Source: Haloprofundus salilacus
Lineage (GTDB): Archaea > Halobacteriota > Halobacteria > Halobacteriales > Haloferacaceae
Assembly (NCBI RefSeq): GCF_020150815.1
Contig: NZ_CP083723.1
Location: 2,108,001 to 2,172,000, forward strand
Direction of reading: 5' to 3'
Length of the DNA stretch: 64,000 nt
Below, piece by piece: positions 38,868-46,775 of the stretch. The notes beneath the pieces were generated by a model. The model was not told where the DNA came from. It worked only from the letters and a program-made list of their open reading frames with translations, and did no database searches. The position numbers and the translations under genes were made by a program. Position 1 is the first letter of the stretch. The number at the start of each line of letters is the position of its first letter.

Positions 38868-39029
38868 GGTGACAGATAACAGTCCCATCCAAATAAACGC
38901 GCTGGGTCGAACAGACCGTCGGCGGCGCGATACGGACATAGGTTGTCTACGATACGACGCCGGTCGCGCGGGATACGGGCGCCGGTTATAAGGTCGCGGG
39001 CTAGTTTGGGTCAGCTAACTAAACACTGT

Positions 39030-39860
39030 ATGAACGACGGGTATCAGCTTCCCGAGCGCGTGTACGGCGTCGTGTTCGACGCGCACGCCCGAGAGGCGGG
39101 GGAACGGAGTTGGTTCGTCGAAGCGAACGTGACGGAGCAGTCGTTGCGCATCGTCGACTGCGCCCCGGTAGCAGAGCGGTTCGGCGTCTCCCCATACCGA
39201 CCCGACACCGTCGCCGCGCTCGTCTCGTTCGTCGCCGGTCTCGACGGCCGGTGCGCCGTCGGACTCGACTTCCCGTTCGGACTTCCGAAGGCGGTGGTCC
39301 CTGAGCGACGGTGGCGACGCTTCGTCGACCAACTCCCCGACTGGTTCTCCGGGCCCGAGGACATGGCCAAGCGCTGTCGAATGCACGCTCGCCTCGTCAC
39401 CGACGGCGCGGAGTCGAGCGTGCTCCGCGCGACCGAGGAACCGCTGAGCGCCGTTGCCGCCTACGACGAGCGACTCTGTGCGGAGACGTTCTACGGCATC
39501 CGCGACCTGTTGCGACCGCTCGTGCTGACCGACACCGCGCGAATCGTCCCGATGCAACTGCCGCGCGAAGGCCGCCCGCTGGTCCTGGAGACGTACCCGG
39601 CCGGAACGCTCGACACGCTCCGGTATCGCGAGCGAGAAGAATCAGCCGACGACGCTCCGACGCCGGCGTTCGTGTTGGACAACCTCGCCGACCGAGCCGT
39701 CGAGTTGTCCTCGTCGGTTCGAGAACGCGTCCGCGACGGCGGCGACGGCGCCCTCGAAGCGGTCGTCGCCGCGTTCGCGACGTTCCGCAACGCCGTCGAC
39801 CCCGCGAACCTCCGGATGACCGACGAGCTCCCGTCGGTCGAAGGCTACATCTACGTTTGA
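39030..39860 (+). CDS. DUF429 family protein (RNase H-fold, predicted nuclease)
   Basis: A 276-residue protein of the DUF429 family, predicted from fold to be RNase H-like nucleases. Acidic motifs are GVVFDAHARE (about 13-22), VGLDFPFGLP (about 77-86) and LETYPAGTLDTLR. The C-terminal FATFRNAVDPANLRM, then EGYIYV, is typical. No activity has been assigned to the family. A TCAGCTAACTAAACAC AT-rich box precedes the ATG at 39030, supporting this start over the in-frame upstream codon at 38943. Confidence 0.85.
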   Translation: MNDGYQLPERVYGVVFDAHAREAGERSWFVEANVTEQSLRIVDCAPVAERFGVSPYRPDTVAALVSFVAGLDGRCAVGLDFPFGLPKAVVPERRWRRFVDQLPDWFSGPEDMAKRCRMHARLVTDGAESSVLRATEEPLSAVAAYDERLCAETFYGIRDLLRPLVLTDTARIVPMQLPREGRPLVLETYPAGTLDTLRYREREESADDAPTPAFVLDNLADRAVELSSSVRERVRDGGDGALEAVVAAFATFRNAVDPANLRMTDELPSVEGYIYV

Positions 39861-39967
39861 GCACCGAGGCGCAACGCCCGCCCGACCGCAGGAACGACTC
39901 CCGACTCCGGTAGTCGGCAGAGCACCGGAACCGCACCGTTTTACCCGTCGCCCGACAACCCGGGTCT

Positions 39968-41689
39968 ATGACCGACCCCGCCGACCTCAGGGTGACGCTC
40001 GTCGACGGATACGTCGACGAACCGGCGCACTTCGGCGTGCCGCCGTACATCTCGACGTACCCGCGCTTCACCGCCGGTGCGATGGTCGACGCCGGGGTGC
40101 CCGAGGAGCAGATCACGTACCACACCATCGACGAACTCCGCGACGACAGGCGAAAGTGGGCCGACGTCGCCGACGCGGACCTGTTCGTCTACATCGGCGG
40201 GATGACCGTTCCCGGCAGCTACGTCGGTGGGACGCCCGCCGAACCCGACGAGGTGAAAGAACTCGCGTGGACCGCCGACGGGACAACGCTCATGGGCGGT
40301 CCCATCCGCTTCGGCGTCGGCGAGGAGAACGCGGGCGGCCAAGACATGGAACGGAAAGATCTCGACTACGACTTCGTCGCGAAGGGCGACGTCGAGGCGG
40401 CCGCCTACGACCTCGTCGACAGCGGCCTAGAGGGGTTCGGAAACCGGATGCGCGACAACGAGGAACTCGACCGCTGGGCCGCCAAGGGCGCGTTCGTCGT
40501 CGAACAGCATCCGAACCATCCGCACTATCTGATCTGCGAGATGGAGACCTCCCGCGGCTGCGCCTACCGCTGTTCATTCTGCACGGAGCCGCTCTACGGG
40601 AATCCGTCCTTCCGGACCGCCGACTCCGTCGTCAAGGAGGTCGGGAACCTCTACAACCGCGGGGCGCGACATTTCCGCCTCGGCCGCCAGGCCGACATCC
40701 TCGCGTTCGGCGGTGACGGCGAAGCGCCGAACCCGGACGCGCTCCGCCGACTCTACGGCGGCATCCGCGAGGTAGCTCCCGATCTGGGGACACTCCACCT
40801 CGACAACATGAACCCCATCACCATCGCGCGGTGGCCCGAGGAGTCCAGAGAGTGCATCCGCATTATCGCCGAGCACAACACGCCGGGCGATACTGCTGCA
40901 TTCGGCCTCGAATCGGCCGACCCCGTCGTCCAGGAGGAGAACAACCTCAACGTGAGCGCCGACGAGTGCTTCGAGGCGGTGAAAATCGTCAACGAGGAGG
41001 GCGGGTGGCGACCCGGCGAAGACCCCGCGGACGCACCGACGTTCGGCGACGAAGCCGCGAGCCGCCTCCCCAAACTGCTCCCCGGCATCAACCTCCTGCA
41101 CGGACTGATGGGCGAGCGCGAGGAAACGTTCGCGCACAATAAGCGGTTCCTCCATCGGGTGTACGACGAGGGGCTGATGGTCCGCCGCATCAACATCCGA
41201 CAAGTGATGGCGTTCGACGGCACCGAGATGTCGTCGACCGGGTCGCAGATCGCGAAGGAGCACAAGAAACTGTTCAAGAAGTACAAACGGGAGGTCCGCG
41301 AGGAGATAGACCGGCCGATGCTCAAGCGCGTCGCGCCGCCCGGGACGGTGCTGGAGAACGTCCACCTCGAATACCATCAGGACGGCACGACGTTCGGCCG
41401 CCAACTCGGGACGTACCCCCTCCTCGTCGGCATCCCCGGCGAGCGCGAACTCGGCCGAACCGTCGACGCGGCCATCGTCGACTACGGCTACCGCTCGGTG
41501 ACGGGCGTGCCGCACCCGCTCGACGTCAACACTGCGTCGATGGACGAACTCACCGCGATTCCCGGTCTCGGCAGGTCGAAAGCGGGCGACGTCATCGTCA
41601 ACCGACCGTACGAGTCGGCGGACGACGTGGACGACGCCCTCGCGAAGTTCGTCAGCGTCGGCGACGGCGACGTGGGAAGCGCCGACTGA
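39968..41689 (+). CDS. Radical SAM protein with B12-binding-like N-terminus and helix-hairpin-helix tail
   Basis: A 573-residue enzyme. Residues 8-110 resemble a degenerate cobalamin-binding domain. The radical SAM cluster is C198-x3-C202-x2-C205 (SRGCAYRCSFC), followed by the barrel with strands such as LGTLHLDNMNP and AAFGLESADP. The last 60 residues carry a ComEA-type helix-hairpin-helix (DVNTASMDELTAIPGLGRSK) that usually binds nucleic acid. RNA or DNA modification is therefore a reasonable guess, but no substrate is known. Its stop overlaps the MBL gene start by one base. Confidence 0.9.
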   Translation: MTDPADLRVTLVDGYVDEPAHFGVPPYISTYPRFTAGAMVDAGVPEEQITYHTIDELRDDRRKWADVADADLFVYIGGMTVPGSYVGGTPAEPDEVKELAWTADGTTLMGGPIRFGVGEENAGGQDMERKDLDYDFVAKGDVEAAAYDLVDSGLEGFGNRMRDNEELDRWAAKGAFVVEQHPNHPHYLICEMETSRGCAYRCSFCTEPLYGNPSFRTADSVVKEVGNLYNRGARHFRLGRQADILAFGGDGEAPNPDALRRLYGGIREVAPDLGTLHLDNMNPITIARWPEESRECIRIIAEHNTPGDTAAFGLESADPVVQEENNLNVSADECFEAVKIVNEEGGWRPGEDPADAPTFGDEAASRLPKLLPGINLLHGLMGEREETFAHNKRFLHRVYDEGLMVRRINIRQVMAFDGTEMSSTGSQIAKEHKKLFKKYKREVREEIDRPMLKRVAPPGTVLENVHLEYHQDGTTFGRQLGTYPLLVGIPGERELGRTVDAAIVDYGYRSVTGVPHPLDVNTASMDELTAIPGLGRSKAGDVIVNRPYESADDVDDALAKFVSVGDGDVGSAD

Positions 41690-42489
41690 TGGAGTCGAGC
41701 GTTCGCCGGGTCTCCGTCTCCGTCGCCACCCGCGCGCCGACCGGCGCGACGAACGCGTACCTCGTCGGCGACGACCCCGCAGTTCTGGTCGACCCCGCCG
41801 CGCGGACCAGCGCGCTCGACGCCTTCGTCGCCCAGGCGAACGTCAAGCACGTCGCCGTCACACACACCCACCCGGATCACGTGGGCGCGGTCGCCGACTA
41901 CGCCGAGGAGACCGGCGCGACGGTGTGGGCGCGTCGCTGGCGCGAAGAGCGATTCGAACGAGCGACCGGCGTCGAACCTGACCGGACGTTCGCCGAGGGG
42001 ACCGAGATAGCGACCGACGCCGGGCCGGTCACCGTCTTCGACGCGCCGGGCCACGCCGTCGACCACGTCGCGTTCGGTGTCGGCGAGGGACGCCAGCGGA
42101 TTCTCTGCGGTGATTTGGCCGTCGTCGAGGGGAGCGTCGTCGTCGGCGCGCCCGAAGGCGACGTGCGCGCGTACCTGACAGCGCTCCGTCGATTGCGCGC
42201 GAAGCGTCCGGTGCGGCTCCTGCCGGGGCACGGACCGGAGATCGCCGACCCGAGCGCGACGCTCGAACGACTGATTCGGCACCGACTCGACAGGGAGCGA
42301 GCGGTAGAAACGGCGATTCGGGGCGGCGCATCGACTGTCGACGACGTGGTCAACGCGGCCTACGAGAAGGACCTCACTGGGGTCGAGGATCTCGCGAAGG
42401 CGACGGTGGCGGCCCACGTCGAGAAGCTGGCGCGCGCAGGGCGGGTCGGGTGGGACCCCGAAGGCGGGACGGTTCGGCCGGCGGACTGA
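41689..42489 (+). CDS. Metallo-beta-lactamase fold hydrolase
   Basis: A 266-residue MBL-fold protein. The metal-binding motif THTHPDH is at residues 58-64, followed by APGHAVDH and LCGDLAV with further ligands and LLPGHGPEI with the last histidine. A C-terminal winged-helix-like part (about 205-260) makes it similar to LACTB2-type single-strand RNases, but hydrolysis of another ester or thioester is equally possible. It is co-translated with the radical SAM gene, so the two may act on the same nucleic-acid or cofactor substrate (inference). Confidence 0.87.
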   Translation: MESSVRRVSVSVATRAPTGATNAYLVGDDPAVLVDPAARTSALDAFVAQANVKHVAVTHTHPDHVGAVADYAEETGATVWARRWREERFERATGVEPDRTFAEGTEIATDAGPVTVFDAPGHAVDHVAFGVGEGRQRILCGDLAVVEGSVVVGAPEGDVRAYLTALRRLRAKRPVRLLPGHGPEIADPSATLERLIRHRLDRERAVETAIRGGASTVDDVVNAAYEKDLTGVEDLAKATVAAHVEKLARAGRVGWDPEGGTVRPAD

Positions 42490-44699: not shown

Positions 44700-45434
44700 G
44701 TGCTCGTGCAATCGCTCGAAGCAGAACTCGAACGCGCGACCGACCTCGACACCGACGAGTTAGCCGACGCTATCGAGTCGATCGGCTTCGAGTGCACGCG
44801 CTGCGGAGCCTGTTGTAAAGGGTACACCGCCGAGGACGGCGACGAGGAACCGCACACGGCGACCGTGTTTCCCGACGAAATTCGGGAGCTCAACGCGAAG
44901 ACCCCGAAAGAGTACGACCACCGAAGCGACGATGTCACTTCGAGCCCCCGCTCGGTCCCCTCGCGGGAATGGCGCGACGTCGCCCGGCCGATGCCGTACG
45001 GACTCGCCCAGAGCGAAGACGGCGACGCGGAGGGCGAAACGTTCGAGTGGGCGCTACAGACCGACGCCTGCGGCGACTGCACGTTCTACGAGGAAGACGA
45101 GAACGGCACGGGCGCGTGTTCAGTCCACGAGAACCGCCCGATCATCTGTCGGACGTATCCGTTCTCCGTCGACCTCGGCGGGACGACCCAGCCGATGGGC
45201 GAGGCCGTCGACGGCGAGGGGATGGTCCGCGCCCACGAGTGCGAAGGGCTCGGCCGCGACATCGCTCGCGAGGACGCCGAGGAACTCGCAGCGGCGCTCA
45301 AGGCGCGCGCCGTCCGGGAACTCGAGGAGGCGATAGGCGTTCGAGACAACTATGCGCCGACGGAGCGAGCGTCTGGCGAGGTCGTCGTCCACGACTCCGA
45401 AGGGGCGAAACGACCGGACGGGACGCCGCGCTGA
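44700..45434 (+). CDS. YkgJ family cysteine-cluster protein
   Basis: A 244-residue protein with the eight-cysteine YkgJ cluster. It includes ECTRCGACCKGY (about 31-42), ACGDCTFYE, a CSVHENRPIICRTYPF segment near 140-155, and AHECEGLG. The cluster is thought to bind zinc or iron; several YkgJ proteins accompany metal or iron-sulfur handling. It starts with a GTG at 44700. The C-terminal 40 residues are helical and acidic. It is divergent from the kinase. Confidence 0.88.
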   Translation: MLVQSLEAELERATDLDTDELADAIESIGFECTRCGACCKGYTAEDGDEEPHTATVFPDEIRELNAKTPKEYDHRSDDVTSSPRSVPSREWRDVARPMPYGLAQSEDGDAEGETFEWALQTDACGDCTFYEEDENGTGACSVHENRPIICRTYPFSVDLGGTTQPMGEAVDGEGMVRAHECEGLGRDIAREDAEELAAALKARAVRELEEAIGVRDNYAPTERASGEVVVHDSEGAKRPDGTPR

Positions 45435-45492
45435 ACCGGCCGCTCAGAGGCGCTCGCGTATCAGGAGTCGGAACAGTGTTGGCGGCGGTACA

Positions 45493-45500
45493 TCTTTAAC
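45493..45500 (+). promoter_or_regulatory. TATA box of the TRAM gene
   Basis: TCTTTAAC, centred about 24-25 nt before the GTG at 45521. The spacing favours a leaderless GTG start over the TTG at 45536, which would otherwise give the family's usual MEISDKLLC start. Confidence 0.5.
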
Positions 45501-45520
45501 GACGGACACCGACCCACACG

Positions 45521-45940
45521 GTGGAGGCCTCTCCCTTGGAAATCTCAGATAAACTCCTGTGTCTGTTCAGCGCGGAAGTGCGCAGCGACGGCGACTCTTA
45601 CACGGTCGAAATCCCGCGTCGGGAGGTCGAAACCGGATCTATCGAGGCGGGCGAGACGTACCGCGTCGCGCTCATCTCCCGCGAGGCGAACTCCGGCGCG
45701 TCGACCGGAGAGTCGGCGTCGGCGACCGACGCCGACGAACCGCAACCGCCGGTCGAAATCGGCGAACTGCGTTACGTCGAAATCGAAGATATCGGCAAGC
45801 AGGGCGACGGCATCGCCCGCGTCGAGCGCGGCTACGTCATCATCGTCCCGGACGCGGACGTCGGTGAACGGGTGAAGATAGAGATCACTGAAGTGAAATC
45901 GAACTTCGCCGTCGGCGAAGTCATCGAAGACGAGTTCTGA
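45521..45940 (+). CDS. TRAM domain protein
   Basis: A 139-residue protein ending in a TRAM domain (about 75-139: EIGELRYVEIEDIGKQGDGI; KSNFAVGEVIEDEF). TRAM is an RNA-binding OB-fold used by tRNA-modifying enzymes and, stand-alone in archaea, by small RNA chaperone-like proteins. The N-terminal 60 residues (LLCLFSAEVRSDGDSYTVEI) form a second beta-rich part, then a short Ala/Ser/Glu linker. The start is GTG 45521 from the TATA spacing; TTG 45536 is the alternative. An RNA chaperone role is inferred from the family. Confidence 0.88.
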   Translation: MEASPLEISDKLLCLFSAEVRSDGDSYTVEIPRREVETGSIEAGETYRVALISREANSGASTGESASATDADEPQPPVEIGELRYVEIEDIGKQGDGIARVERGYVIIVPDADVGERVKIEITEVKSNFAVGEVIEDEF

Positions 45941-45969
45941 TCCGTCGGGCGCTCCCGATACGGGAGTCG

Positions 45970-46677
45970 CTACACGACTTCCGCGTTCCAGTACGACACC
46001 GACGCGAGCTTCTCGCCGAGCGCATTGTTTCGAATTGTCTCGTCTAACTCCCGGAGTTCTCCGGCGATACCGTTGGGGATCTTCCGGTAGAGACCGTACG
46101 GGAGGATGAAGTCGTGCGACTCGTCGGCCAAGCGGAGACCCGCGCCTTCGAGTAGGCGCTCGACGTCCTCGCGCGAGTAGAGGTGCGACCCCATCGGCAA
46201 CAGCCAGTTGTAGACGACGCGCGTGCTGAAACTGTTGAACGTGTCGAAAAACACCTGTTCTTTGGAGACGCGACACATTTCCGCGAGGAACTTCGCGGGG
46301 GTGTCCGCGAGGTGGAAAAATCGCATCGCCATTACGGCGTCGAAATGGTCGTCGGGAAACGGCAGTCGGGCGGCGTCGCCGCGGATGAACTCGATGCGGT
46401 CGCCGACGCCCGCGCTCCGCGCTTTCTGTCGGCCCTGCGCCATCATCGCCGCCGAGATGTCGAGTCCGACGACGTTGGCTCCGCGTTCGGCGAGCGCGAC
46501 GGTGAAACGACCGGTTCCGCACGCGATTTCGAGCACGTTCTTCTCTTCGACCGGTCCGAGCGCCGACAGCACCGCCTTCTTCTCGCGGCGGTCGATGAGT
46601 CTCCCGCCCTTCGAGAACCGCTTCGAGTCGTACTCGCGGGCTACGTCGTCGGCCTGGTACCACTCCTGTCCTTTCAC
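45970..46677 (-). CDS. Class I SAM-dependent methyltransferase
   Basis: A 235-residue methyltransferase. The SAM-binding motif I is VLEIACGTGRF (about 49-59), followed by VVGLDISAAMM, IRGDAARLPFPDDHFDAV and the typical FFHLAD segment. Substrate unknown; related proteins methylate small molecules (quinone or lipid precursors). The start is a GTG at 46677 (KGQEWYQADD), which fits family alignment better than the in-frame GTG ten codons upstream. It is divergent from the small zinc protein gene. Confidence 0.87.
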   Translation of the reverse strand: MKGQEWYQADDVAREYDSKRFSKGGRLIDRREKKAVLSALGPVEEKNVLEIACGTGRFTVALAERGANVVGLDISAAMMAQGRQKARSAGVGDRIEFIRGDAARLPFPDDHFDAVMAMRFFHLADTPAKFLAEMCRVSKEQVFFDTFNSFSTRVVYNWLLPMGSHLYSREDVERLLEGAGLRLADESHDFILPYGLYRKIPNGIAGELRELDETIRNNALGEKLASVSYWNAEVV

Positions 46678-46775
46678 GCTACTTCCGACTGCACACCGAA
46701 ACACCAAAACCGTACTGGATGACAGGTCGGAATCCGCGAACTGTGCCTTATGCTCGCACGCGACATAGATCCGGT

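Follow-up and report, generated by a model that had tools for sequence, protein, structure and literature searches.

We consider it an evenly balanced proposition that the radical SAM (rSAM) protein encoded in the window (the whole stretch of 64,000 nucleotides of Haloprofundus salilacus DNA analysed here) is a stand-alone enzyme directed to RNA or to the ribosome, carrying out radical modification of C-H bonds on a MiaB/RimO scaffold, and that the MBL-fold hydrolase encoded behind it is separable from this function. The rSAM gene is found in 59 of the 60 genomes of the family sample (its own included), at 72-95% identity in the others, so that its open reading frame is no chance frame; it is also present in 243 of the 295 genomes of the phylum sample. 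If the protein does modify RNA, it would explain one unassigned archaeal modification, and it would link cobalamin rSAM methylases and methylthiotransferases in one scaffold. The features of the locus are collected in Table 1.

Table 1. Features of the rSAM and MBL genes in the window
Feature	Position	Strand	Basis
rSAM protein, 573 aa, ATG start, helix-hairpin-helix (HhH) tail	39968..41689	+	ORF list and Pfam
N-domain of rSAM, residues 1-186, Rossmann/flavodoxin-like	39968..40525	+	fold comparison
Radical SAM core, residues 192-345, CX3CX2C	40541..41002	+	Pfam Radical_SAM above cut-off
TRAM-like five-stranded barrel, residues 461-515	41348..41512	+	fold alone
ComEA-like HhH tail, residues 517-552	41516..41623	+	Pfam HHH and profile
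LACTB2-like MBL-fold hydrolase, 266 aa, ATG start, winged-helix-like tail	41689..42489	+	
TGATG stop/start overlap between rSAM and MBL genes	41687..41691	+	sequence read
TTTTA element, probable TATA of a leaderless transcript, 25 nt 5' of rSAM ATG	39939..39943	+	

The protein is presumably of the COG1031 kind, "radical SAM enzyme with C-terminal helix-hairpin-helix", an archaeal group whose description agrees with the architecture seen here. Literature searches under COG1031, MJ1155, six arCOG identifiers and motif terms yielded neither a substrate nor a product or phenotype that could be tied to it. When named genomes were searched by sequence, the best 80 of the 179 matching stretches all came from haloarchaeal or halophilic-archaeon records. 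Conservation was assessed on 61 of 69 non-redundant rows; L068, L103, L111, L122, L133, L134, L168 and L178 were left out, some because of an extension or a stop, others merely to shorten the list.

The initial annotation had described a radical SAM protein with a ComEA-like HhH tail, and both parts are recognised by Pfam above cut-off (Radical_SAM at 192-345, HHH at 520-542). The tail, taken as a family profile, matches the ComEA-related PDB entry 2duy with an E-value of 2.4e-5; HHH_3 is detected in 47 of the 61 members, and the tail is missing in five of the six genomes of one genus. The three cysteines of the CX3CX2C motif (C198, C202, C205) are invariant in all 61 rows and no other cysteine is, from which the absence of a sulphur-donor cluster follows. 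The window protein has cysteines at 190, 198, 202, 205, 296 and 334 only. Outside the motif, the commonest cysteine columns among the 61 rows are 190 (46 rows), 21 (33) and 334 (26); the frequency of cysteine at 190, though not invariant, counts against the reading preferred here. At position 21, the 25 halobacterial rows all carry His, and 33 of the 36 others Cys; L, V or Q is found there in three of the 61, which also weighs against that reading.

A structure model of the protein (pLDDT 88, pTM 0.89) retrieves MiaB, MgmA, RimO and MtaB as top Foldseek matches, with E-values from 8e-17 to 5e-16. Aligned with VIA-align, RimO reaches a Z-score of 25.1 (406 residues aligned at 4.3 A, model residues 9-517), MiaB 23.9-24.7 and MgmA 23.5; of the ten best rows, it is MgmA that superposes with the lowest rmsd (363 residues at 3.3 A). 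The barrel is covered by the alignment to 2qgq (TM_1862), which we take to be RimO minus its N-domain, since 266 of its 272 residues align to residues 182-516 of the model. The predicted fold thus appears to be the layout of the methylthiotransferases MiaB and RimO, that is an N-domain, an rSAM core and a TRAM-like barrel, to which an HhH tail is added. At the sequence level, no Pfam TRAM domain was detected in the 61 members, and a profile comparison of TRAM with the barrel gave a probability of 2.4%, out of register.

For the N-domain by itself, the first VIA-align matches are TsrM (Z 10.3), MgmA (9.7), OxsB (9.5), CysS (9.3) and TokK (8.9), and the model therefore suggests, by a slim margin, a likeness to the cobalamin domains of rSAM methylases. 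The next fold is LarB, which is no rSAM enzyme, at Z 8.7, so that the lead of the cobalamin enzymes is at most 1.6, and for several of the five there is no real lead over LarB. No clear cobalamin match for this domain emerged from Foldseek alone, the Pfam B12-binding domain had no match in the 61 members, and a profile comparison with the MTTase domain of e-MtaB detected no sequence similarity (probability 0.1%). MiaB and RimO are missing from the VIA-align list for the N-domain, which carries no weight against them. The window protein has the rSAM core in common with TsrM, MgmA, OxsB, CysS and TokK, and perhaps, by the slim margin given above, the N-domain fold; the invariance of the three rSAM cysteines alone is a feature found also in cobalamin-dependent rSAM methylases; it differs from these enzymes by the addition of the TRAM-like barrel and the HhH tail, and by having no Pfam cobalamin signature.

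In the mechanism that we propose, the barrel and the HhH tail would hold a structured RNA (a tRNA or an rRNA), whether by itself or as part of a ribosomal particle. The enzyme, with a single [4Fe-4S] cluster, would make a 5'-deoxyadenosyl radical or use a cobalamin-bound methyl, and it would functionalise an unactivated carbon, of which methylation is the simplest case. RimO has the same layout yet acts on protein, and the fold is thus no proof of an RNA substrate. That the protein is a cobalamin-type radical enzyme writing a carbon-linked rRNA modification, with the orphan nucleoside N330 as candidate, is a long shot; the link to N330 is a guess, chosen from the literature on orphan modifications and not from the sequence. 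N330 (330.117 Da) lies at C1352 of the H. volcanii 16S rRNA (1404 in E. coli numbering), in h44; its enzyme was still lacking in 2008, and the counterpart in P. abyssi was modelled only tentatively. Among bacteria, N330 is reported from Thermotoga maritima, and Escherichia coli has an unmodified C at this site (PMC2584109).

Three other readings of the rSAM protein have to be weighed against an RNA-directed enzyme of this kind. A methylthiotransferase still making a methylthio nucleoside after loss or replacement of the sulphur-donor cluster would fit the closest overall fold: MiaB, RimO and e-MtaB have the domain order in common with the window protein and are its best structural matches (Z 23-25), and a profile match to the e-MtaB of the same genome is detectable (E 2e-7, columns 191-498). 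It is nevertheless very unlikely, because the protein is without the N-terminal cysteine triad for that cluster (C11, C47 and C76 in the genome's own e-MtaB); the HhH tail also sets it apart from those enzymes. The NCBIfam MTTase models stay far below cut-off (TIGR00089 at 19.8 of 251 bits, TIGR01578 at 21.7 of 314.7 bits), and the presence of the genome's own e-MtaB also speaks against it. A role as replacement for the normal e-MtaB was rejected for the latter reason and because e-MtaB is the more widespread of the two, occurring in 281 of the 295 genomes of the phylum sample. It is unlikely, to a much lesser degree, that the enzyme modifies a ribosomal or other protein in the manner of RimO or MgmA, with the barrel and the HhH tail docking on a ribonucleoprotein. 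The protein-acting RimO and MgmA are among its closest folds, and MgmA stands out both for its rmsd and for its place among the first N-domain matches; on the other hand, HhH tails ordinarily bind nucleic acid and argue against a protein substrate. Moreover MgmA acts on MCR, which is not known to occur in haloarchaea, so that this substrate at least is excluded.

An enzyme acting on a small molecule (a cofactor), with the HhH tail and the barrel as structural leftovers, is improbable. In its favour, some cobalamin-domain rSAM enzymes retrieved by fold, OxsB and TsrM, have small-molecule substrates, and some neighbours of the rSAM gene outside haloarchaea point the same way: among 33 clustered non-haloarchaeal loci, an MptE-like gene is found near it in nine, and a sugar nucleotidyltransferase gene lies near it or overlaps it in seven. 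Yet the neighbours vary by lineage, such clusters were unseen beside the haloarchaeal copies in an unsystematic look, and retention of the HHH_3 signature by most members also argues against this role. An orthologue with an established small-molecule substrate, which the initial annotation had set against its own reading, was found neither by sequence searches of NCBIfam, Pfam and PDB nor in the literature. A gene of the Thg1 family (tRNA guanylyltransferase) is near rSAM in nine of the same 33 loci, recognised by Pfam in one of them, and favours the RNA-directed reading. An operon partner was also sought among conserved neighbours: a TrkA-DHH gene and the MptE-like gene are close to rSAM in 9-10 of these loci, for the most part upstream and in its direction. 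The idea was dropped as the non-haloarchaeal loci have no theme in common.

The MBL protein is, judging from its sequence, a LACTB2-like metal hydrolase and possibly a ribonuclease. It matches Pfam Lactamase_B with 65 bits and PDB 4ad9, a LACTB2-like protein, with an E-value of 9.6e-20 over residues 20-254; Lactamase_B and, probably, a winged-helix-like tail are what the two have in common. In an alignment of 20 of the 52 orthologues with the window copy, the seven metal-ligand positions (HxHxDH and others: H59, H61, D63, H64, H122, D142, H181) are invariant in all 21 sequences. The C-terminal winged helix that had been assigned to this protein holds at the level of the family, BLACT_WH (PF17778) being detected with E-values of 0.01 or lower (1.7e-5 at best) in 16 of the 21; the window's own protein is not listed among them. 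Since LACTB2-like proteins usually carry BLACT_WH, the helix says little in favour of a joint role in RNA metabolism. Of the nucleic-acid-binding extensions that had been assigned to both proteins, those of rSAM are supported: beside the HhH tail, it has a MiaB-type fold with a TRAM-like barrel at 461-515, which the initial annotation did not mention.

A single pathway, in which an RNA modified by rSAM would be cleaved or matured by the MBL, is rather improbable. It is favoured by the report of LACTB2 as an endoribonuclease (PMC4770246) and by the TGATG overlap at this locus, where the junction reads GAC TGA TGG. The rSAM stop occupies 41687-41689 and the MBL start 41689-41691, so that base 41689 belongs to both genes and the overlap of one base was correctly described; MBL is probably co-transcribed and translationally coupled with rSAM in H. 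salilacus. The overlap is not general, the alignment edges being 3-213 nt apart in the 33 family genomes where MBL follows closely on the same strand. Gene order also lends it some support, since the MBL gene lies behind rSAM in the same direction in 37 of the 59 family genomes with rSAM (directly downstream in 33, within 1 kb in four more) and nearby on the opposite strand in 14; co-directional order is hence the majority state in the family, and a shared pathway there is possible. In four more genomes MBL lies elsewhere, and in the last four a recognisable orthologue was not found, which counts against one pathway. The pair is thus not confined to this genome, and it is conserved in part: the genes are not adjacent and co-directional wherever both occur.

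In the named-genome set (the best 80 of the 179 loci), 42 loci have an MBL on the opposite strand and 10 a co-directional one; matches below 40% identity were excluded from this count (L053 has one at 28%), and the flank was too short in five of the 80. The other main haloarchaeal branch, with 47 rows, is entirely without the co-directional order, and on the rSAM tree this order needs at least six changes; both facts argue against one pathway. The tree was built from 75 named-genome rows and 29 of the 59 family genomes, two sets that overlap, and certain genomes are therefore represented by two rows. One species contributes both a chromosome and a plasmid, as L090 and L091. Outside haloarchaea, rSAM of locus L160 is likewise followed at once, in the same direction, by an MBL-fold gene, which would favour one pathway. 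The product of that gene is however shorter and of another kind (222 aa, no tail, 32% over 78 residues), and in L158, from the same genus, a different gene takes its place. No further MBL match at E 1e-3 was found in loci L137-L181, of which L137-L156 alone have long flanks. With MBL often on the opposite strand, its order changed at least six times and the orthologue missing in four of 59 genomes, the modification-plus-processing pair of the initial annotation is not well supported. In some halophilic archaea MBL often lies beside rSAM, but it is probably no more than a neighbour there and not bound to it as a partner; in the reading that we prefer, of a stand-alone RNA- or ribosome-directed enzyme, it would drift in and out of position behind rSAM within one family and be dispensable for rSAM function.

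Whatever gene follows it, rSAM of haloarchaea is preceded by a conserved promoter element of its own, which favours the stand-alone reading. In 128 of the 134 haloarchaeal loci, with near-copies counted, a TATA-like 4-mer falls within -32..-21, against 11, 3, 0 and 6 of the 134 in four shifted control windows.

The locus, from a 3.73-Mb haloarchaeal genome, carries two adjacent genes, encoding a 573-aa radical SAM protein with a helix-hairpin-helix (HhH) tail (rSAM) and a 266-aa metallo-beta-lactamase-fold protein (MBL). Open reading frames, Pfam domains (Lactamase_B being confirmed in MBL) and the TGATG junction, where base 41689 is read as common to both genes, place them as in the initial annotation, one-base overlap included. 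The rSAM protein is a real, strongly conserved archaeal enzyme with an unusual domain combination, for which we found no function. Its family as such, which we take to be COG1031, was already known; what is new is the reading of its architecture.

Features of the rSAM-MBL locus (genes in window positions, domains in rSAM residues)
Feature	Position	Strand	Source
rSAM gene	39968-41689	+	ORF
MBL gene	41689-42489	+	ORF
Radical_SAM domain of rSAM	residues 192-345		Pfam
HHH domain of rSAM	residues 520-542		Pfam

In a family sample drawn evenly the rSAM gene is present as a single match in 59 of 60 genomes, own included, the others being 72-95% identical; the only genome without it is 56% complete. 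The Haloprofundus marisrubri protein is 95% identical to that of the window. In the phylum sample (E 1e-10), 243 of 295 genomes have a match and 52 have none, with no match in families f10, f15, f16, f20, f22, f23 and f24 (handles are given for 20 of the 52); the non-halobacterial copies examined are 36-54% identical. The methylthiotransferase e-MtaB, of which the window genome has its own copy, occurs in 281 of the same 295 genomes, including genomes without rSAM. Thus rSAM is widely retained, yet losable, and the idea that it stands in for e-MtaB was rejected.

An AlphaFold model of rSAM, built with 61 alignment rows (36-84% identical to the first), reached pLDDT 88 and pTM 0.89. Its best Foldseek matches in the PDB are MiaB, MgmA, RimO and MtaB (E 8e-17 to 5e-16), and VIA-align gave Z 25.1 for RimO (406 residues, 4.3 A, model 9-517), 23.9-24.7 for MiaB and 23.5 for MgmA (363 residues, 3.3 A). 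Similarity to the e-MtaB of the window genome extends over columns 191-498 in a profile comparison (E 2e-7). Since 266 of the 272 residues of 2qgq (TM_1862), presumably RimO without its N-domain, align to model residues 182-516, a five-stranded barrel at residues 461-515 occupies the TRAM position in the model; no Pfam TRAM match was obtained in the 61 members, and comparison of the barrel with the TRAM profile gave a probability of 2.4%, out of register. The tail is ComEA-like by sequence comparison, as first proposed, and HHH_3 is recognised in 47 of the 61 members. It is missing in five of the six genomes of genus g64 (G071, G130, G135, G207 and G331), judging from rSAM matches that end at residue 513, and its absence is seen directly at L150, the locus from G071.

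Methylthiolation, the chemistry of several of these structural relatives, has to be weighed against the cysteines. Only C198, C202 and C205 are invariant in the rSAM alignment; of its 61 rows, 46 have Cys at position 190. The N-domain of the genome's own e-MtaB has C11, C47 and C76, which we take to be the cysteines of the second cluster. According to the available part of PMC10702137, methylthiotransferases require a second, N-domain cluster to insert sulphur. With only three invariant cysteines, rSAM is very unlikely to carry out methylthiolation of the usual kind. Modelled alone (pLDDT 83), its N-domain is closest in VIA-align to those of five cobalamin-dependent radical SAM enzymes, TsrM (Z 10.3), MgmA (9.7), OxsB (9.5), CysS (9.3) and TokK (8.9), with LarB next at 8.7, rows less than 1 apart being ties. 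Foldseek alone returned weak, mixed Rossmann matches to this domain, and Pfam no cobalamin match in the 61 members. In classical cobalamin domains the His ligand sits in the loop that follows the first strand. In rSAM that loop is nearly invariant except for position 21 (codon 40028-40030), which is His in all 25 halobacterial rows, Cys in 33 of the 36 others and L, V or Q in the rest. Because the spacing departs from the classical motif, His/Cys 21 as a cobalamin ligand is only a hint.

The layout of rSAM is that of enzymes bringing a radical SAM centre to nucleic acid or to a ribosomal protein. Its two accessory parts, the barrel and the HhH, have relatives that bind nucleic acids and, together with a single cluster and possibly a cobalamin-type N-domain, point to an enzyme that would functionalise C-H bonds by a radical route, C-methylation being the simplest case, on a structured RNA or ribosomal particle. 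We give this reading an even chance. Within it, and as judgements instead of measurements, we are quite confident that rSAM is no methylthiotransferase, lean slightly towards an RNA substrate, and regard the predicted use of cobalamin as slightly less likely than not. Haloferax volcanii has unassigned modifications, among which the accessible part of PMC2584109 gives an unidentified wobble uridine and N330, located at position 1352 of the 16S rRNA, for which it names no enzyme. In the P. abyssi 30S the corresponding cytidine was tentatively modelled as hm5C (PMC7005279, in the part available), and N330, at 330.117 Da, is by our arithmetic about 87 Da above cytidine; that rSAM makes it is a guess, and a very improbable one. 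No literature on the protein was found under COG1031, MJ1155 or arCOG01355-01360, and the accessible portions of work on archaeal radical SAM proteins with helix-hairpin-helix domains held nothing attributable to it: unannotated radical SAM proteins of Methanococcus voltae are mentioned in PMC9431491, none matched to rSAM, and the available part of PMC8305020 does not mention it. The window genome also encodes another radical SAM protein (331 aa, L190:1444-2436), which no NCBIfam model matched at E 1e-20.

The initial annotation regarded rSAM and MBL as a modification-plus-processing pair, and its conservation is partial. Of the 59 rSAM-bearing family genomes, 33 have MBL immediately after rSAM on the same strand, no more than 250 nt away, and four others have it co-directional within 1 kb. 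Another 14 carry it on the opposite strand, 1.2-2.7 kb downstream, and in four it is far off or on another contig; in the remaining four no orthologue was found at E 1e-20. Among the best 80 of 179 loci it is on the same strand in 10, on the opposite strand in 42 and not within the flank in 23, the flank being too short to judge in five. A FastTree tree of 104 labelled haloarchaeal rSAM rows has two main branches: one contains all 25 of the same-strand rows (with 21 opposite, 11 none), and the other, of 47 rows, contains not one (30 opposite, 17 none). At least six changes of the same-strand label are required, three of them forced by well-supported branches. The usual arrangement is a block of TRAM, CxxCxxCC and MBL genes behind rSAM in either orientation. 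The one-base overlap is thus what rearrangement has produced locally. Against this, the co-directional order is the majority state in the window genome's own family, and at the non-haloarchaeal locus L160 an MBL-fold gene lies directly behind rSAM on the same strand (L160:628-1296); its 222-aa product is 32% identical over only 78 residues and lacks the winged-helix tail, and in L158, a locus of that genus, another gene takes this place. In the window the two genes are likely co-transcribed and translationally coupled, from which a common pathway does not follow.

The haloarchaeal rSAM gene appears, from its upstream sequence, to have its own promoter. A TTTTA element precedes its ATG by 25 nt in the window, and a TATA-like 4-mer occurs at -32..-21 in 128 of 134 loci (near-copies and the own genome included), against 11, 3, 0 and 6 in four shifted windows; examples come from all three MBL arrangements. 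Such TATA-to-ATG spacing fits a leaderless archaeal transcript.

MBL itself is an ordinary hydrolase and a frequent yet replaceable neighbour of rSAM. Seven metal-ligand positions do not vary among 21 orthologues, and the nearest relative of known structure is 4ad9 (E 9.6e-20), deposited as beta-lactamase-like protein 2. The winged helix ascribed to it is supported at family level, BLACT_WH being matched in 16 of 21 members, the window's own copy not among them. Human LACTB2 is reported to be a mitochondrial endoribonuclease (PMC4770246). RNase activity of MBL is possible, though related MBL proteins also hydrolyse small molecules.

Just past MBL, 44700-46707 holds three genes, one for a CxxCxxCC (PF03692) protein, one for a TRAM-domain protein and one whose product, judged by eye, is methyltransferase-like; this block accompanies the rSAM region across many haloarchaea and is inverted in different lineages. 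At L140, from a tentatively Methanocella-like genome, a CxxCxxCC homologue (L140:5706-6284; E 1.7e-35, 36% over 242 alignment columns) is found on the opposite strand some 2.9 kb past rSAM, so that this linkage may be older than that with MBL. Upstream, a DUF429-like gene (39018-39860, same strand; E 9e-5, just under the cut-off) ends 107 bases before rSAM, with copies near rSAM in several genera (29-41% identity, 81% in Haloprofundus). Long antisense open frames opposite rSAM and other genes (e.g. 40574-41515, minus strand) are probably an effect of high G+C. Natronorubrum bangense carries rSAM and its neighbours on both chromosome and plasmid (L090, L091), with identical protein.
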